NCBI GenBank assembly: GCA_004322045.1
Contig: SCRN01000014.1
Coordinates: 1 to 64,000 of the forward strand
Source of the DNA: Paraburkholderia sp.
Lineage (GTDB): Bacteria; Pseudomonadota; Gammaproteobacteria; Burkholderiales; Burkholderiaceae
DNA length: 64,000 nucleotides
Direction: 5' to 3'
Made by a program: the position numbers and the translations under genes. The notes beneath the pieces are model-generated. The model did no database searches, was not told where the DNA came from, and worked only from the letters and a program-made list of their open reading frames with translations. Below are positions 54,550 to 64,000 of the stretch, in pieces. Position 1 is the first letter of the stretch. Each line of letters begins with the position of its first letter.

Positions 54550-56335
54550 AGCGAACCTCGTGCAGCTCGGCGCTCGTGCGGCTCGACAGCGCCGAGAGCA
54601 ATGCAGGAATATCGTCGTCTTGCGGCACGAACGGCGAGCCGTCGCGCGGAATGCAGAACGCGCTCTTGATCAAGAATTTCTTCGTCGCGACGTAAAGGTT
54701 CTCCGGCACTTTCTGGCCCGTCGACACGTAATGCACGGGCAGCTTGTAACGGATCACCGTATCGAGCACGCTGCCCAGATTCGTCGCTTCGTCGAGCTTG
54801 GTCAGAATGCAGCCGGCCAATTCGGGCTGACCCTTGGCGCTGCTGTACGCCTGCACCACTTCGTTGAGCGTGTCGCCGTGGCTCGTCGCATTGAGCAGCA
54901 AGAGCCGCTGCACGGGCAGCCCCGCGCCGCACAGCATGGCTATCTGGTCAGAGACCGTGCGGTCGCGCTGGCTCATGCCGATCGTGTCGATCAGCACGAT
55001 GTGTTTGTTGCGCAGCTCGGCCAGCGCCAGCTTCAGATCCGCGCCGTCCTTCACTGCATGCACCGAGACGCCGAGGATCTTGCCGAAGATGCGCAGTTGC
55101 TCATGGCCGCCGATGCGATAGCTGTCGGTGGTCAGAAGCGCCACCTTGCTCGCGCCGAAGCGCATCACGCAGCGCGCGGCGAGCTTGGCCGTCGTGGTGG
55201 TCTTGCCCACGCCCGTCGGCCCCATCAGCGCGAACACGCCGCCGCGCTCCATCAGCGCGTCTTCGTTTTCGAGCACGGGCAGGTTCGAGCCCAGCACTTG
55301 ATGCACCCACTCCATCCCGGCGTCGACGTTCTCGACTTCCGGCATGTGGTCGACCACCATGCGCACGAGCTGGGCCGAGAAGCCGGCCGAGAACAGCGCC
55401 TTCGTGACTTCGCCTTGCACGGGGCTGCGCCGCTGGCGCTCGCCCCACGTCAGTCCGGCGAATTGCTCTTCCATCATGCCGCGCATGGCCGACAGCTCGC
55501 TCATCACCGTCTGGTTGACGATTTCCTCCACGCGCGCGCGGATCGCCTCGGCCATTGCCTCCGTGTCTTGCTCGGCCGGGCCTTCGAATGTGGGCTTGGT
55601 CACGCGCGGCGCCGCGCGGCGCGCTGCCACGCGGGCAGCTTCGTGCGCCCAATCGGGCACTTGCGCCGTCTCGAGTTCCTCGGGCGAGAGCACGCGGCCC
55701 GGCGCGCCGAGGCCCTTGGCCGCCGCCGCGGACGGCGTCATGGCGTGCGCGCGCGAGCTGTGCGCGGGACGCTCGTTTTGGGTCGCGATGCGGTGCGCGT
55801 GGTCGATCAGCCACGGGTTGGATTCGCCCAGCGTGCGGGCATCGCCGCCGGCATCAGCGCTCGTCTGCGCGCCGCTCGACGTGCGGCCGGCTGTCGACGC
55901 GCCCGATGCGCCGGAGCGCTCGTTCGTATGCGGTGCGGCGATCGCAGCGGCATCGGTTGCAGCCGGACGGCTCGTTTCGTTGCCGTTCGCGCCCACCTCA
56001 GGGCTCGCGCCGAACACGGCCGAGAACACATCGGGCATCCCGTTCGCGTACGGATTGGACGGCATCGCGCGCGGCTGAGCGGCCGGGCTTGCCGAGCCGC
56101 TCGCATAGGGATTGGCGGTCGACGTGAAGCCGAGGGGGTGCGTTGCGCTTTGCGTCGTTGCTTCGCCCGCGTCGGGCGCAATGTGCGCGAAATCGGTGTC
56201 GGCCAGCGCGACGATTTCGACGCTGCCGTCCTCATTGGTCCGGTTCGACAACACGACGGCGTCGGCACCGAGGGCTTCGCGCACCAGGCGCAGTGCGTCG
56301 CGGCTCGTGGCGCCGATGAATTTACGAATGTTCAA
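54542..56335 (-). CDS. flhF: Flagellar SRP-type GTPase FlhF
   Basis: The protein has 597 residues. The N-terminal basic domain (MNIRKFIGATSRDALRLV) is followed by a long Ala/Ser-rich linker (about residues 55-220). Then come the N domain and the GTPase domain: P-loop G-P-T-G-V-G-K-T-T near residue 370, T-T-D-S-Y-R-I-G, and T-K-L-D-E. FlhF sets the polar site of flagellar assembly. The start is TTG at 56335, overlapping the flhA stop (TTGA) behind a GGGGGT site. The linker is long for the family. Confidence 0.96.
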   Translation of the reverse strand: MNIRKFIGATSRDALRLVREALGADAVVLSNRTNEDGSVEIVALADTDFAHIAPDAGEATTQSATHPLGFTSTANPYASGSASPAAQPRAMPSNPYANGMPDVFSAVFGASPEVGANGNETSRPAATDAAAIAAPHTNERSGASGASTAGRTSSGAQTSADAGGDARTLGESNPWLIDHAHRIATQNERPAHSSRAHAMTPSAAAAKGLGAPGRVLSPEELETAQVPDWAHEAARVAARRAAPRVTKPTFEGPAEQDTEAMAEAIRARVEEIVNQTVMSELSAMRGMMEEQFAGLTWGERQRRSPVQGEVTKALFSAGFSAQLVRMVVDHMPEVENVDAGMEWVHQVLGSNLPVLENEDALMERGGVFALMGPTGVGKTTTTAKLAARCVMRFGASKVALLTTDSYRIGGHEQLRIFGKILGVSVHAVKDGADLKLALAELRNKHIVLIDTIGMSQRDRTVSDQIAMLCGAGLPVQRLLLLNATSHGDTLNEVVQAYSSAKGQPELAGCILTKLDEATNLGSVLDTVIRYKLPVHYVSTGQKVPENLYVATKKFLIKSAFCIPRDGSPFVPQDDDIPALLSALSSRTSAELHEVRFG

Positions 56336-58434
56336 GCGTGACCCCCAATGAGGTTAACGACTTTGATCGTGCGTGTTTCGGGCACTTCGGCATACGAGAG
56401 CACTTTCAATTGCGGCAGGCTGCGGCGCAGGAACCGCGCGAGCATCGCGCGAAGCGCGTGCTGCACGAGCAGCACCGGAGGCAGCCCGGCGTTTTGTTGG
56501 CGGGTGATCGCCCTTTGCGTCGCAGTCAGGAGCGTGTGCGCGAGGCCCGGCTCGAGGCCAGGGTTCGCACCCGTCGAGAGCGCTTGCGAAAGCACGCGCT
56601 CGAGATTCGAATCGAGACCCATCACCTGCATTTCGGTGGCTCCCGGATACCACTGCTGCGTGATTGCGCGGCCCAGGGCCAGGCGCACGCTTGCGGTCAG
56701 GTCGTACGCGTCGGTCTGCTTGCCGGCGTGCTCGGAGAGCGCTTCGAGGATCGTGCGCATATCGCGGATCGGCACCCCTTCCTCGAGCAGGTTTTGCAAC
56801 ACCTTTTGCAGCGTTGTGAGCGAAAGCGTCTTGGGCACCAGATCTTCGATGAGCGAAGGTGCGTCCTTGCCGGTGCGCGTGATCAGCGCTTGCACTTCCT
56901 GGCGGCCGAGCAATTCCGCGGCATGCTGCACGACCAGATGGTTCAAGTGCGTCGCCACGACGGTGCTGGCGTCCACGACGGTGTAGCCGTACACTTGCGC
57001 TTGCTCGCGCAAGTTCGTGTCGATCCAGATGGCGGGCAGGCCGAAGGCCGGGTCTTGCGTCGGCTGGCCCGGCAGCGCGGCCGTGACCTGCCCCGGATTG
57101 ATCGCGAGCCACTGGCCCGGGTAGGCTTCGCCCACGCCCACTTCGACACCCTTGAGCGCGATCCGGTAACCGTTCGGGCGCAGCTCCAAGTTGTCGCGAA
57201 TGTGGATGACGGGGGGCAGAAAGCCGATTTCCTGCGCGAACTTCTTGCGGATGCTTTTGATGCGCTTGAGCAGTTCGCCGTCGCTGTTCTTGTCGACGAG
57301 CGGGATCAAGCGGTAGCCCACTTCGAGGCCCAGCGTGTCGATGAGCGTGACGTCGTCCCAGCTCGCTTCGTTGTTCTCCGCGGGGGCCGCGATGGCCGGC
57401 GCCATATCGACGAGCGACACGCCTGCCTTGGCCGCTTCGCTGCGCTTTTTCATGATGCGCCCGAGTTGGAGCGCGCCGCCGCCGAGCAGCAAGAACGCAA
57501 AGTGCGGCATGTTCGGGATCAGACCGAGCAGGACGATGATCGAGCCCGTGATCATCAACACGCGCGGGTTCGTGAAGAGCTGGCCCGTGAGTTGGGTGCC
57601 GATGTCTTCGTCGGTGGCGACGCGCGAGACGATCACGCCCGCCGCCGTCGAGATGACGAGCGAAGGAATTTGGGCGACGAGGCCGTCACCGATCGTGAGC
57701 AGCGTATAGGTCTTGCCGGCCGCGGCGAAGTCCATCCCGTGCTGCACGACGCCGACGATCAGGCCGCCCAGCACGTTGACGACCATGATGATGAGGCCCG
57801 CGATCGCGTCGCCGCGCACGAACTTCGATGCACCGTCCATCGCGCCGTAGAACTCGGCTTCTTGCGACACCGACTGGCGACGCTTGCGCGCACCGTCTTC
57901 GTTGATGAGGCCGGCGTTCAAATCGGCGTCGATCGCCATCTGCTTGCCCGGCATCGCATCGAGCGTGAAGCGGGCGGCCACTTCGGCGATACGCCCTGCG
58001 CCCTTGGTGATCACCATGAAGTTGATGACCATCAGGATGGCGAACACGACGATACCGACCGCGAAGTTGCCGCCGACGAGGAAGTGGCCGAACGATTCGA
58101 TCACTTGGCCGGCGGCGCCCGGGCCCGTGTGGCCTTCGAGCAGCACGACGCGCGTGGAGGCGACGTTCAGCGACAGGCGCAGCAGCGTCGAGAACAGCAG
58201 CACCGCCGGGAAGGCCGCGAAATCGAGCGGCTTTTGCGTGTACATGCTGACGAGCAGCACCATCACCGACAGCGCGATATTGAACGTGAAGAGCAGATCG
58301 AGCAGGAACGGCGGCAACGGCAAAATCATCATGCCGAGGATCATGCAGATCAGGATCGGACCTGCGAGCGCGCGCAGGTTCGCGCCGCTCAGCATTTGGC
58401 TCTTGCCGAACAGGGCGCCGACGCGGGCGTTCAT
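56332..58434 (-). CDS. flhA: Flagellar export gate protein FlhA
   Basis: The protein has 700 residues. Eight membrane helices fill residues 20-330. The FHIPEP-region signature is seen as GRIAEVAARFTLDAMPGKQMAIDADLNAG in conserved pieces. The C-terminal half is the cytoplasmic ring that receives chaperone-substrate pairs. FlhA is the proton-driven export engine. The ATG overlaps the flhB stop (ATGA). The end overlaps flhF. Confidence 0.98.
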   Translation of the reverse strand: MNARVGALFGKSQMLSGANLRALAGPILICMILGMMILPLPPFLLDLLFTFNIALSVMVLLVSMYTQKPLDFAAFPAVLLFSTLLRLSLNVASTRVVLLEGHTGPGAAGQVIESFGHFLVGGNFAVGIVVFAILMVINFMVITKGAGRIAEVAARFTLDAMPGKQMAIDADLNAGLINEDGARKRRQSVSQEAEFYGAMDGASKFVRGDAIAGLIIMVVNVLGGLIVGVVQHGMDFAAAGKTYTLLTIGDGLVAQIPSLVISTAAGVIVSRVATDEDIGTQLTGQLFTNPRVLMITGSIIVLLGLIPNMPHFAFLLLGGGALQLGRIMKKRSEAAKAGVSLVDMAPAIAAPAENNEASWDDVTLIDTLGLEVGYRLIPLVDKNSDGELLKRIKSIRKKFAQEIGFLPPVIHIRDNLELRPNGYRIALKGVEVGVGEAYPGQWLAINPGQVTAALPGQPTQDPAFGLPAIWIDTNLREQAQVYGYTVVDASTVVATHLNHLVVQHAAELLGRQEVQALITRTGKDAPSLIEDLVPKTLSLTTLQKVLQNLLEEGVPIRDMRTILEALSEHAGKQTDAYDLTASVRLALGRAITQQWYPGATEMQVMGLDSNLERVLSQALSTGANPGLEPGLAHTLLTATQRAITRQQNAGLPPVLLVQHALRAMLARFLRRSLPQLKVLSYAEVPETRTIKVVNLIGGHA

Positions 58435-59636
58435 GCCGATGCTCCTTCGTTGGGCTCGCCGAGCGCTTCGTCGGCTTCTTCACGTTCGTCGGACTCGGAA
58501 ATCGGGTCCTTTTTGTCCAGTTCGGCGGGCACGTCGAGTTCGGTCGGTGCGGCCGGAACGTCTCCGCCTTCCTCGCGGAACTTGCGCAGTTGATAAACCC
58601 AGGCCAACACTTCGGCCACGGCGTTGTAGAGCACGCCCGGGATTTCGCGATTCAATTCGACGTTGTGATACAGCGCGCGCGCGAGCGGCGGCGCTTCGAG
58701 CATGGCGACGTTGTTTTCGGCTGCGATTTCGCGAATGCGGGCGGCGACGAGGTTCACGCCCTTGGCGACGACCTTCGGCGCGCGCATTTCGCCGTCTGCG
58801 TACTTGAGCGCGACCGCGTAATGCGTCGGGTTCGTCACCACCACGTCGGCCGTGGGCACGGCGGCCATCATGCGGCGGCGGGCGATTGCGCGTTGCTGCT
58901 GGCGGATCTTGCCCTTGACGTGCGGGTCGCCTTCGTTTTCACGGTGTTCCCGCTTCACTTCTTCCTTCGTCATGCGCAGCTTCTTGTGGTACTGCCAGAG
59001 TTGATAGGGAACGTCGGCCGCGGCGATCACGAACATGCCGGCGACGGTCGTCGCGCAGCATGCGGCGACGATCGACAGCCCATGGCCGAGCGCCTTATGC
59101 ACCGGCTCGCCGGCCAGCGCGAGGATTTCCGCTTTGCGATGCCAAATGGCCATGGCGCCGATGATGCCGACGACGAGCGTCTTGGCGAGCGACATGCCGA
59201 GTTGGATGACGCCGTTGATCGAGAAGATGCGGCCCATGCCCGCGATGGGGTCGACGCGCTCGAACTTGAACTCGAACACCTTCGGCGAGAGCAGCCAGCC
59301 GCCGAGCGCCATCGGTGCGGCAATCGCCGCCAAGCCCGTGAGCGCGAGAATCGGCGTGACGGCGAGGAACGCTTCACGTCCGGCGTTGCCCGCGCCGATC
59401 AGCATGCGGTTGGTGTCGGTCAGGCTCGCGTGGTTGAACGTGAATGCGCCGCGCAGCATGGCTTGCAGATGCAGGCCGATCGGACCCGACAGGCCCCACA
59501 CGCCGAAGAAGCCGGCGCCCAAGAGCGCGAACGTCGCCAATTCCCGCGAGCGCGCAACCTGCCCCTCCGAGCGCGCCTTTTCTAGGCGCCGGGGGGTTGC
59601 CGCTTCGGTTTTGTCGAGGTCGCTGTCCTCTGCCAC
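58431..59636 (-). CDS. flhB: Flagellar export switch protein FlhB
   Basis: The protein has 401 residues. The N terminus (DKTEAATPRRLEKARSEGQV) leads into four membrane helices. The cytoplasmic domain has the self-cleavage site N-P-T-H (VVTNPTHYAVALKY). Cleavage there allows the switch from hook to filament export after the FliK signal. The tail after residue 350 is acidic and longer than in E. coli. The start is GTG behind GGAGAA. It is the first gene of the flhBAFG-fliA block. Confidence 0.98.
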   Translation of the reverse strand: MAEDSDLDKTEAATPRRLEKARSEGQVARSRELATFALLGAGFFGVWGLSGPIGLHLQAMLRGAFTFNHASLTDTNRMLIGAGNAGREAFLAVTPILALTGLAAIAAPMALGGWLLSPKVFEFKFERVDPIAGMGRIFSINGVIQLGMSLAKTLVVGIIGAMAIWHRKAEILALAGEPVHKALGHGLSIVAACCATTVAGMFVIAAADVPYQLWQYHKKLRMTKEEVKREHRENEGDPHVKGKIRQQQRAIARRRMMAAVPTADVVVTNPTHYAVALKYADGEMRAPKVVAKGVNLVAARIREIAAENNVAMLEAPPLARALYHNVELNREIPGVLYNAVAEVLAWVYQLRKFREEGGDVPAAPTELDVPAELDKKDPISESDEREEADEALGEPNEGASA

Positions 59637-59903: not shown

Positions 59904-61151
59904 TTAGAACGCGACGAACGGGCTCGCGCCGCCCGAGGCCGTTTGGTCCATGCCGTAGTAGACCGTCTTGCCGTAGAAAAACGGCATGCCTAGATCGACG
60001 AAGCTGAGACTGCTACCGAGGCTGCCGGCAAGGTTGTTCAGTGCGTAATTGCCGTTCGCGAGCAGCGCGCTCGCGTTGCCCACCGACATCGACAGCGCGC
60101 TGCCATTCGGCGCGCCCGGCGAACCGCCGTTGTAGTTTGCAACCGTCACCGTCCGCGTGACCGTCGAGCTCGGGCAATAGAACGAAGACGCGTTGCCCGA
60201 GCAGTTAGGCAGCGTATTGTCGGTGAAAAAGTACGCATTCGACCCCGAATCGAAGAACGCCGGGAGCGCGTTGCCGTTGAAGGTGGCGTTCACGTCGCCG
60301 GATCCGTTCGTCGCGAGCTTTAGCACCGTGCTCGGCAGCCCATTGTTCGATTGCGTGTTGATGCCGAACGTGAGCATGCCGCTGACTGTGCTCTGCCCGG
60401 TCGGGCCAATGCTCGGCATCGATAAGATCACGCCGTTGTTGTCGGGCGCGAACTTGACCACGGGATTGGTCACTTGCTGCGCTTCTGCCACGGCCGTCTG
60501 TGCGCAGTTCGCTCCATTGGGGCACGCGTAATAGCCCGCCGACGCAGGCGCGCAGCTCTTGCCGCAATCGGTGGGCGCGACGCCCACGCCCAGGATGCCG
60601 TTCGCGCCGAGATCGGCGGGCGTCAGTTCGAGCGTGCCCGTCGAACAGCTGTTCCCTGTGAGCGCAGCGCTTTGTGGCATATCGCCGACGATCTGAATCG
60701 GCAGGCTGCTGGCCGTTTCTTTGCCGATGGTCACGTCGGCCGTGCGGATCGAGCCCCAGGTGAAGCCATCGGCGAACCCCGTGCATTCGGCCAGTTGGGC
60801 TCCGGCGACCGTCTCCTTCGGCAATGCGCTCAGCACTTGGCTCGCCGCCGAGCTGGCAAGCCGAAGCCCGAACGATTCCGTATCAACTTGAATGTTGTCG
60901 ACGGTTTGGCACGTGGACGAACCCGGCGCGCAGATCGTCACGCTGACTGTTGGGATATTCGCGACGCCCTCGACGCCCCGAGCCACCGTCACCACGGCTT
61001 GGTTCGCAGCCGGTTGCACCCCGCCCGCGCTGCCGCCGCCGCTTCCACCGCTATCGCCGCCGCCACCGCCGCACCCTGCGACCACGGCGGCGAGGGTTGC
61101 CACACCGAGCGCCCTGGCCGCCCGAAAGAGTTTGCTGTGAGTGCGCAACAT
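59904..61151 (-). CDS. DUF3443 lipoprotein, copy A; pepsin-like fold proposed
   Basis: The protein has 415 residues. The N-terminal lipobox V-A-G-C (Cys27) and a Gly/Ser linker suggest surface anchoring. The segment order resembles a pepsin-type aspartic protease. It has V-D-T-E-S (Asp90), F-A-D-G (residue 126) before V-T-I-G-K, N-G-I-L-G-V-G (184-190), F-D-S-G-S (Asp301) and a C-terminal L-G-M-P-F-F-Y-G-K-T-V-Y. The first active-site motif has Glu in place of the needed Gly, so this copy may be inactive. Many Cys shared with copy B suggest disulfides. The ribosome site is AGGGAGA. It lies 51 bases after its DUF2844 partner. Known function: none. Confidence 0.85.
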   Translation of the reverse strand: MLRTHSKLFRAARALGVATLAAVVAGCGGGGGDSGGSGGGSAGGVQPAANQAVVTVARGVEGVANIPTVSVTICAPGSSTCQTVDNIQVDTESFGLRLASSAASQVLSALPKETVAGAQLAECTGFADGFTWGSIRTADVTIGKETASSLPIQIVGDMPQSAALTGNSCSTGTLELTPADLGANGILGVGVAPTDCGKSCAPASAGYYACPNGANCAQTAVAEAQQVTNPVVKFAPDNNGVILSMPSIGPTGQSTVSGMLTFGINTQSNNGLPSTVLKLATNGSGDVNATFNGNALPAFFDSGSNAYFFTDNTLPNCSGNASSFYCPSSTVTRTVTVANYNGGSPGAPNGSALSMSVGNASALLANGNYALNNLAGSLGSSLSFVDLGMPFFYGKTVYYGMDQTASGGASPFVAF

Positions 61152-61202: not shown

Positions 61203-61718
61203 TTATTTGATGTCGGCGCCCGTCATGCCTGCGGGCAGCGCGCTCGGCAGCCAGGCTTGGCCGAAGAACGATCCCATGTGACCGCCCGAATGCACGACGA
61301 GATCGGATTGCTCGACGGCAACTGGCCCCCGTGCGTGACGGGCGGCGCGCTGCGCTTTGACCCCGCTTGCGTACTGCGGGAAATAATTACCGAGCAACGT
61401 CTGTAAATCGGGCATGCGCGGCCCGTTCCAGGCGATCCCGAACACGGTGCCGCCCGCGCCGATGTATTCGCGCACTTGAGTGCCGGTCGAGAACGTCGTG
61501 GAACGGACGGAATAAGGCGAGGAGGCGGTGGCTCCGGACGAGGTTCCCCCCGTTGCCGCGGAAGCTACGCGGGCCGCGGTGACCACGCTGTTGGTCGCGT
61601 CGTTTGGGGTGGCCATGGGTGCGCCGCCGAGGACGGCCCAAGCAAAGGAAGGCACGGCAGCTAACGCGCCGACAGTGAGAGTCGCGCGAACAACGGCGCG
61701 TAAAGGACGATTCAACAT
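61203..61718 (-). CDS. DUF2844 secreted protein, copy A
   Basis: The protein has 171 residues with a signal peptide ending near AWA-VL. The core is V-R-E-Y-I, T-V-F-G-I-A-W-N-G-P-R-M-P-D and L-L-G-N-Y-F-P-Q-Y. The C terminus is S-G-G-H-M-G-S-F-F-G-Q-A-W-L-P. All are shared with copy B at the right edge. No enzyme motif is seen, and mature Cys is absent. A perfect AGGAGG lies before the ATG at 61718. It is always followed here by a DUF3443 gene, so the two products probably work together, for example as substrate, inhibitor or partner. Confidence 0.82.
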   Translation of the reverse strand: MLNRPLRAVVRATLTVGALAAVPSFAWAVLGGAPMATPNDATNSVVTAARVASAATGGTSSGATASSPYSVRSTTFSTGTQVREYIGAGGTVFGIAWNGPRMPDLQTLLGNYFPQYASGVKAQRAARHARGPVAVEQSDLVVHSGGHMGSFFGQAWLPSALPAGMTGADIK

Positions 61719-62109: not shown

Positions 62110-63489
62110 TCAGAAGGCGACGTAAGCCGCCGTCCCCACGTTGAGCGCGCCGCTGCTTGCCGTGTCGTAATTGAAATAGACCTTGCGACCGTAGAAGAAT
62201 GGCATACCGAAATCAACCGCCAACAACCCGCCGTTGCCGCCCAGGTTCGAGAACGCAAAGCCGCCGCCGTTGCGCAGGTCCAACCAATTCCCAATGCTGA
62301 TCGGGATCGTCGCGGTCGCGCTATTGAATCCGGTTACCGAAGGCTGCAACGATACGGCGGACGCCGGGCAAAAGAAGCCGCTCAGATCGGAGCAGGCAAG
62401 AATACCGGGCGTATCGGGGAAGAAGAGCCCGTTCGATCCGGTGTCGAAAAATGCCGCGCGCTGAGTCGACGACGTGTCGTTATAGGTCGCACCACCCAGC
62501 GAAGCACTTTGGACGTCGCCATAGTGATCGGTCGTGAACTCTTGGATGCCTGAGGACGGCACCGCATTGTTTGCTTGCGTACCGAGCCCGAAGGTCAAAT
62601 AGCCGGAAGCGCTCGTCGCGCCAGTGGCCCCGACAGGCGGCATATCCAAAATCACGCCATTGGTGTTGCCGCTCGCGAAAAACTGAACCGGGTTGGCCAC
62701 TTGCTGGGTGTTCGGCACCGCCAAGTTGGTGCAGTTGCTCATCGTGCCACCGCTCAACGTGCATCCGTAATAGAGATCGTTGTTGGTCGTGACCTGGCAA
62801 CCCGTGCCGCAGTCATATTTCGCCGTCCCGATACCGAGAATGCCGTTGGCGGCGAGAGAGGACGGCGTGTCGTGAAGCGTCGTTGGGCTTGCGCACGCGT
62901 TGTTGCTGCCACCGGCCGCCGATTGCGCGATGTCGCCAAGAATCTGGATAGGCATACCCGAGGTCGCCGTCGCAGTCTCGCCACCGATCTGCACGTCCGC
63001 CACGCGCACCGATCCCCATGACGAACCGTCGGCGAAGCCCATGCATTCGGCCACGGCTTGTCCCGACACCGTCTCGACCGGCAACGCATTGAGCATGGTA
63101 CTGTTCAGTGCACTGGAGGTCAGCCGCAATCCGTACGATCCCGTGTCGAGTTGGATGTTGTTGATGGTCTGGCAGACGCTCGTGCCGTGCTGGCAAACGG
63201 TTACGCTCACCATCGGGATGTTTGCCGCCCCCATCGCGGAAGACACCAGGACCGCCACCTGATTGGTGGCCAACGAAGCCGGCGTGCTCGAGACAGGGCC
63301 GCTCGCGACGACGCTCGAGTTGCCGCTGGTGTTACCGGACGGGGTTCCGCCCGTGCTGCCGCTACTAGACGTCGTGCTTGCAGTGCTGCTCGAGCCTCCT
63401 CCGCCGCCGCAACCCGCGACAAGACCGACGATTGCCGCCAACCCGAACGCACTCAGCGTGCGGGCCAATGCTTTATTGATCTGCAACAT
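62110..63489 (-). CDS. DUF3443 lipoprotein, copy B; pepsin-like fold with both active-site motifs
   Basis: The protein has 459 residues. The lipobox L-V-A-G-C (Cys27) is followed by a Ser/Thr/Gly linker to about residue 75. Both active-site motifs of pepsin-type proteases appear intact: L-D-T-G-S (Asp115) and F-D-T-G-S (Asp349). Between them lie F-A-D-G-S-S-W-G-S (152-160), like the pepsin flap, D-V-Q-I-G-G, and N-G-I-L-G-I-G (215-221). The end has V-D-F-G-M-P-F-F-Y-G-R-K-V-Y-F. The Asp spacing of 234 is somewhat more than in pepsin. The start at 63489 puts the signal at the N terminus. It follows its DUF2844 partner by 22 bases. Protease activity is inferred, not known. Confidence 0.85.
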   Translation of the reverse strand: MLQINKALARTLSAFGLAAIVGLVAGCGGGGGSSSTASTTSSSGSTGGTPSGNTSGNSSVVASGPVSSTPASLATNQVAVLVSSAMGAANIPMVSVTVCQHGTSVCQTINNIQLDTGSYGLRLTSSALNSTMLNALPVETVSGQAVAECMGFADGSSWGSVRVADVQIGGETATATSGMPIQILGDIAQSAAGGSNNACASPTTLHDTPSSLAANGILGIGTAKYDCGTGCQVTTNNDLYYGCTLSGGTMSNCTNLAVPNTQQVANPVQFFASGNTNGVILDMPPVGATGATSASGYLTFGLGTQANNAVPSSGIQEFTTDHYGDVQSASLGGATYNDTSSTQRAAFFDTGSNGLFFPDTPGILACSDLSGFFCPASAVSLQPSVTGFNSATATIPISIGNWLDLRNGGGFAFSNLGGNGGLLAVDFGMPFFYGRKVYFNYDTASSGALNVGTAAYVAF

Positions 63490-63511: not shown

Positions 63512-64000
63512 TTATTGGATATCGGAAGCACTGAGGCCGACCGGCAAAGCCGAGGGCAAATAGGCTTGTCCGCCGAACGCGCCCATGTGGCCGCCCGAGC
63601 GCACCACAAGACCAGGCAGTTCGATCACGAGAGGGCCGCGGCCTGGATGCGCCGCGCGCAGCGCGTTACGCGCGCTATCGAATTGAGGGAAGTAATTGCC
63701 GAGCAGCACCGCCAAGTTGGGCATCGCAGGGCCGCCCCACGCAATACCGAATACGGTGCCGGCTGTCGAGGTGTACTCGCGCACGATCGTGCCGCTGCCG
63801 AAAGTCGTTTGCGTCACCGTATAGGAAGCGGTGCTCGCGCTCGCAGCGCTCGCCGCACCCGATGCGGCATGAACGACAGAAGAGACAGAAGAGACGGGAG
63901 ACACTGAAACCGACGTCGCGCCGGCAGGCGGCGGCGTGGGGGTGCCGCCGAGCGCGGCGAGCGCGGGCGCGGCCACGCCCATTACCCCGCAGGTCAGCGC
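63512..64000 (-). CDS. DUF2844 secreted protein, copy B, cut by the right edge
   Basis: The frame is open to the window edge, and the visible 162 residues begin within a signal peptide (VMGVAAPALA-ALGG). The Met at 63982 is therefore probably internal. The core V-R-E-Y-T, T-V-F-G-I-A-W-G-G-P-A-M-P-N, L-L-G-N-Y-F-P-Q-F and the end S-G-G-H-M-G-A-F-G-G-Q-A-Y-L-P match copy A. The linker before the core is Ser/Ala/Val-rich. It heads the second module with DUF3443 copy B. Confidence 0.82.
   Translation of the reverse strand, partial: ALTCGVMGVAAPALAALGGTPTPPPAGATSVSVSPVSSVSSVVHAASGAASAASASTASYTVTQTTFGSGTIVREYTSTAGTVFGIAWGGPAMPNLAVLLGNYFPQFDSARNALRAAHPGRGPLVIELPGLVVRSGGHMGAFGGQAYLPSALPVGLSASDIQ

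Follow-up and report, generated by a model that had tools for sequence, protein, structure and literature searches.

The gene analyzed here, termed copy B, lies in a 64,000-nucleotide stretch of DNA from Paraburkholderia sp. (GenBank assembly GCA_004322045.1, contig SCRN01000014.1, positions 1 to 64,000; hereafter the window) and encodes a member of Pfam family DUF3443 with a predicted pepsin fold. We consider it likely, if well short of certain, that copy B acts as an acid protease anchored to the envelope and uses Asp115 and Asp349, with the product of the adjacent DUF2844 gene as its dedicated partner. The computations provide, in support, a predicted bilobed fold, two invariant aspartates within D-[ST]-x-[ST] motifs, and the neighboring DUF2844 gene. 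Copy B occupies window positions 62110-63489, as in the original prediction, and is on the minus strand (459 residues). It is assigned to DUF3443 (PF11925) with an E-value of 2.9e-107 and 359.2 bits (curated cut-off 25), the domain starting at residue 74; the Pfam scan of copy B returned no other family and the NCBIfam scan no match. The closest named relative that we found, from Trinickia sp. Y13, is 90% identical. The window genome carries a further copy in the window (copy A) and a third elsewhere (G000:C17). The features of copy B are as follows.

62110..63489, minus strand: DUF3443 copy B, 459 residues; predicted to be a lipoprotein carrying a pepsin-like domain of two lobes, modeled over residues 70-459.
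63409..63423, minus strand: lipobox L-V-A-G-Cys27 with Gly at +2, followed by a Gly/Ser/Thr-rich linker to about residue 73.
63136..63147, minus strand: site 1, Asp115-Thr-Gly-Ser118, putative equivalent of pepsin Asp32 (Asp in 92/92, Ser118 in 92/92 and Gly117 in 70/92 aligned homologues).
63013..63036, minus strand: flap-like segment F152-A-D-G-S-S-W-G159, with Phe152 aligned to the flap Tyr of bacterial pepsin homologues in one profile comparison.
62833..62847, minus strand: N-lobe psi-loop motif N-G-I-L-G, residues 215-219.
62434..62445, minus strand: site 2, Asp349-Thr-Gly-Ser352, putative equivalent of pepsin Asp215 (Asp and Gly351 each in 92/92).
62173..62214, minus strand: C-lobe psi-loop and closing segment, D426-F-G-M-P-F-F-Y-G-R-K-V-Y-F439, with Asp at the place expected for the first hydrophobic residue of hydrophobic-hydrophobic-Gly.

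The structure model was derived from a 78-row alignment, comprising 76 of 83 frames from related loci (7 were dropped) and the two window proteins. The original prediction had named a fold search as its own check, and the outcome agrees with it: the model is two-lobed and matches pepsins along its whole length, with structural alignments that span both lobes of a single chain. Asp115 and Asp349 are located at or beside the ends of predicted strands. As a prediction, the two-lobed pepsin fold of copy B is close to certain. A retropepsin-like assignment (Asp_protease_2 or gag-asp_proteas, in which a single-lobed chain dimerizes) was rejected, since the model has two lobes in one chain and the matches to these families among the 78 DUF3443 members were all below threshold (8/78 and 9/78, respectively).

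All motifs named in the original prediction are present in the copy B translation in the stated order: D-T-G-S at residues 115-118 and again at 349-352, F-A-D-G-S (152-156), V-Q-I-G-G (166-170) and N-G-I-L-G-I-G (215-221) between them, and F-G-M-P-F-F-Y-G-R-K-V-Y-F (427-439) at the end. This last segment had been likened to I-L-G-D-x-F of pepsin; a closing segment is indeed there, but its family form, G-[ML]-P-F-F, is closer to L-G-L-P-L-[LM], as found in the bacterial A1 proteins L093, L097 and L098 (pepsin homologues). The motif pair by itself is modest evidence because shuffled copy B sequences also yield such pairs (two D[ST]G[ST] in 114 of 20,000 shuffles, and two DTGS in 5).

Conservation among homologues argues much more strongly for the two sites. 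It was assessed over 92 of 101 homologous frames, with 9 omitted as shorter than 330 residues and the L042 row retained although its end looks frameshifted; the three copies of the window genome, the loci L002 and L003, which overlap, and the identical L044 and L091 are all part of the row and locus counts throughout. Both Asp115 and Asp349 are invariant (92/92), as are Ser118, Gly120, Arg122, Gly219, Gly351 and Gly428. Residue 116 is Thr in 90 rows and Ser in 2, and the second motif reads D-[ST]-G-[ST] throughout, residue 350 being Ser in 74 rows and Thr in 18. Since Asp115 and Asp349 are invariant, we infer that copy B has aspartic protease activity.

The N-terminus of copy B consists of a hydrophobic signal, L-V-A-G-Cys27, and a 46-residue Gly/Ser/Thr-rich stretch that appears unlike a pepsin propeptide. 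A lipobox with its Cys after a hydrophobic signal is the pattern of bacterial lipoproteins; copy B fits it and is a predicted exported lipoprotein, in keeping with the earlier claim that the protein is anchored. The Cys27 column contains Cys in 86/92 rows, and a lipobox-type regular expression matches upstream of site 1 in 86 of the 92 stop-to-stop frames, some of these matches possibly being spurious. Gly at the +2 position of a lipoprotein points to outer-membrane sorting, which suggests this location for copy B. Ten cysteines are present besides Cys27, with Cys99, Cys106 and Cys149 invariant (92/92) and the other mature cysteines found in 51 to 85 of the 92 rows. These counts depend on the alignment, since Cys199 is kept in 51/92 rows of this alignment and is invariant in the 78-row alignment. 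A disulfide-rich copy B, as proposed from the first, is plausible.

A DUF2844 gene lies upstream of each DUF3443 gene of the window, in the same orientation. These genes and copy A are as follows.

63512..64000, minus strand: DUF2844 partner of copy B, upstream of copy B and 22 bases from it; the frame extends past the window end, to contig position 64036.
61203..61718, minus strand: DUF2844 partner of copy A, assigned by Pfam, with its ATG at 61718.
59904..61151, minus strand: DUF3443 copy A, 415 residues (Pfam E-value 3.3e-124, 415 bits), with D-T-E-S at site 1 and D-S-G-S at site 2.
60873..60884, minus strand: altered site 1 of copy A, Asp90-Thr-Glu-Ser93, read from the sequence.

DUF2844 is a near-constant partner of DUF3443. 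Its frame was found in 89 of 91 DUF3443 loci; the two misses (L065 and L078) start at contig ends, and the DUF3443 gene of L078 is also split into two frames. Copies A and B are 51.2% identical over 406 aligned residues and the two window DUF2844 proteins are 52.0% identical, so the two genes were probably duplicated together as a unit. DUF2844 begins with a signal-like segment. Its alignment comprised 74 of 78 references (4 were omitted) and the two window proteins, and its model (predicted local distance difference test score, pLDDT, 80.2) showed no clear fold match to solved structures. DUF3443 genes that look broken or frameshifted occur in L042, L074, L076 and L078. The carriers are Candidatus Burkholderia humilis and Caballeronia records (two contigs of the metagenome-assembled genome of an Acor symbiont, and one of strain BR6202001591004); symbiont decay and assembly errors are both possible.

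Several results weigh against an acid protease of family A1, and part of them concern the link to that family. The template modeling scores from Foldseek are only about 0.5. Pfam Asp (PF00026) matched 0/78 DUF3443 members at E <= 1, the 78-row DUF3443 profile had 0 matches in the PDB up to E 10, and a phmmer search of the PDB with copy B returned a single row, an NAD-dependent dehydrogenase (E 0.063), and no pepsin. One protein bridges the two families, a 992-residue autotransporter (L125:938-3916, minus strand, genome G582) that scores 20.9 bits to Pfam Asp (cut-off 19.9) and 32.6 bits to the DUF3443 alignment; the latter is the higher-scoring of two matches in 199 genomes of its order, both in G582. 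Its N-terminal part scores 29.9 bits, against 8.8 bits for the best of 5,000 shuffles. Both links are confined to the N-lobe, the Pfam Asp score is barely above the cut-off, and Pfam's own DUF3443 model does not list the bridge protein at E <= 1.

Profile-profile comparison used 14 bacterial A1 proteins from 16 distinct candidate frames. The match of DUF3443 with a 10-member bacterial A1 group, one of three A1 sets, is suggestive and weak (P 0.0035, probability 9%), with the expected register: DTG on DTG, Phe152 on the flap Tyr, and GILG on GILG. The comparison with all 14 gave P 0.023 in a wrong register, and that with a 4-member shewasin-like group P 0.2; column-reversed controls gave 0.44-0.6. 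The test has little power, since two A1 groups compared with one another as a positive control reach only 0.017. Four bacterial A1 proteins scored against the DUF3443 profile were all weak, two outranking 2,000 shuffles each and two failing to do so. A global alignment was discarded, its register being meaningless.

The remaining points against catalysis lie in the active site. As set out in PMC2761423, family A1 is characterized by hydrophobic-hydrophobic-Asp-[ST]-Gly-[ST] sites, a flap Tyr75, and two psi-loops with hydrophobic-hydrophobic-Gly. In copy B, F-F-D-T-G-S fits the first pattern, and in Q-L-D-T-G-S the first hydrophobic position is taken by Gln. The N-lobe psi-loop conforms (I217-L218-G219), with I/L/V at 217, L/I/V at 218 and Gly219 in 92/92 rows. 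The flap residue is Phe152 in 91/92 rows and Tyr in 1/92, at a position set by a weak profile alignment, and the C-lobe motif, placed by motif, is Asp426-h-Gly428 (h, hydrophobic; Asp in 88/92, Gly in 92/92). By the same account (PMC2761423), no natural Phe75 homologue has been shown to be active and two homologues without the hydrophobic-hydrophobic-Gly motifs are held to be probably inactive; a fungal pepsin with Tyr75 changed to Phe retains some activity. Residue 117 is Gly in 70 of the 92 rows, Ala in 13, Glu in 7 and Met in 2 (non-Gly in 22/92). A quick tree with a midpoint root implies no fewer than 9 changes among these states, with Gly on its early branches. The DUF3443 family is, from these residues, less uniform than copy B implies. 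Because replacement of the site-1 Gly by Ala is held (PMC3335542) to abolish the activity of pregnancy-associated glycoprotein 1, copy A, with D-T-E-S, is by analogy probably a paralogue of reduced or no catalytic activity with the fold retained. Plain membership of family A1 is not supported, given the lack of the flap Tyr, of the second hydrophobic-hydrophobic-Gly and of any Pfam Asp match. On the model, DUF3443 is a lipoprotein family with a predicted pepsin fold that falls outside strict A1 criteria.

These departures would be expected of a pseudopeptidase, a pepsin-fold binding protein like the pregnancy-associated glycoproteins or the plant xylanase inhibitors, whose cleft would bind peptide, glycan or DUF2844 and whose aspartates would be structural or ligand-binding. 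Such a role is a live rival, since both aspartates stay invariant even in the 22 rows substituted at site 1, which fits a non-catalytic function, and we regard it as unlikely rather than far-fetched. Pseudopeptidases tend to lose an Asp, whereas in DUF3443 Asp115 and Asp349 are kept in all 92 rows together with Ser118 and Gly351, and site 1 still reads D-[ST]-G-S in copy B and 69 further rows. It is very improbable that chance motifs in an unrelated lipoprotein have produced the pepsin likeness as an artefact of reading. The motifs alone, given the shuffles that contain two DTGS, would leave room for this, but the invariant aspartates and a full-length pepsin fold predicted with high confidence stand against it, and the predicted fold itself contradicts it.

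The gene neighborhood raises another alternative. In the window genome, cheZ lies upstream of the two pairs (just upstream in the contig) and flhA and flhB follow them (window 56332-59636), all on the same strand; the pairs therefore lie within a chemotaxis-flagellar cluster. Neighbors of the cheZ, flhB and/or flhA type are present in 46/91 DUF3443 loci. The pair could be a motility-linked envelope component of this cluster that acts, proteolytically or otherwise, on flagellar proteins or chemoreceptors. We judge this improbable: the 45 other loci lack these genes at E 1e-8 (in flanks of at most about 3 kb, some of them truncated at contig ends), the third copy of the window genome adjoins MFS, OmpW and DUF2957 genes, a Paraburkholderia aromaticivorans plasmid carries the DUF2844-DUF3443 pair alone beside an integrase gene, and the near-constant neighbor is DUF2844. 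The OmpW-type and DUF2957 genes near the third pair are at L103:10176-12368 (G000 contig C17), and OmpW-like genes also occur in the flanks of the distant DUF3443 loci L068 and L070-L073. Five plasmid records matched; in four of them the gene is annotated only as a 'DUF3443 protein', and in one no gene is listed there.

Compared with A1 enzymes (pepsin, PF00026; endothiapepsin, 1wkr and rhizopuspepsin), DUF3443 shares the predicted bilobed fold over its full length, two D-[ST]-G, the N-lobe hydrophobic-hydrophobic-Gly, a flap-like hairpin and the motif order; it differs in its lipobox, in having no recognizable propeptide and in giving no direct sequence match. Where chymosin has Trp in d-t-g-s-s-d-l-w-v, DUF3443 has the invariant Arg122. 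Pregnancy-associated glycoprotein 1 also combines a pepsin fold with a substitution of the site-1 Gly, a position likewise substituted in copy A and 21 further rows; that protein is mammalian, with Gly changed to Ala, whereas copy A has Glu (PMC3335542). Shewasins A and D (PMC4814920) are bacterial and pepsin-like, without signal peptide or prosegment. DUF3443 resembles them in lacking a prosegment; shewasin D resides mainly in the cytosol and its pepstatin-sensitive activity is proven, whereas DUF3443 has an export signal and a predicted activity. The mycobacterial PecA and PE_PGRS aspartic proteases, also bacterial and surface-associated with a DTG/DSG aspartic-protease domain, are type VII secretion substrates of proven activity (PMC6819658); they were compared with DUF3443 by description. 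The bridging autotransporter, whose N-lobe matches both the DUF3443 alignment and Pfam Asp, differs in its autotransporter beta-domain. Its passenger begins with the pepsin-like N-lobe and has a later D-S-G-A motif, and may be a surface-displayed bacterial pepsin homologue. Weaker matches to the DUF3443 profile were seen in a 371-residue frame near this autotransporter (L127, G582:C1:1337092-1337304; 17.9 bits) and, below the cut-off, in a 4118-residue open frame (L088, G137:C33:30355-30594; 19.9 bits), perhaps the pepsin-like N-lobe of a giant protein.

In the acid protease that we favor, Asp115 and Asp349 would meet in the cleft and activate a water molecule for peptide-bond cleavage, an acidic pH being most likely, and Phe152 would replace Tyr75 on the flap. 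Cys27 and the flexible Gly/Ser/Thr linker would tether the domain to the envelope. No pepsin-type propeptide can be recognized, so DUF2844 would most likely serve as a folding partner, an inhibitor or the first substrate of the protease. We offer tentatively, as a rather doubtful extension, that the two genes, DUF2844 and DUF3443, make up a transferable cassette encoding an acid protease anchored at the envelope and under in-trans zymogen control; exported DUF2844 would be a detached pro-domain, inhibitor or founding substrate, and tandem copies with Glu or Ala at site 1 would be inactive regulators or decoys.

No mention of DUF3443 or DUF2844 was found in the open-access literature searched. 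In a sample of 398 genomes of the phylum, DUF3443 is above the cut-off in 10, including the window's own, and Pfam Asp in 6, with no genome containing both; counting DUF3443 would more than double the carriers of a pepsin fold in such a sample. If the proposal is correct, it would provide a hypothesis of function for two DUF families together, both placed at the envelope, and naturally occurring substitutions of the site-1 Gly and the flap Tyr with which to probe what the pepsin active site needs.
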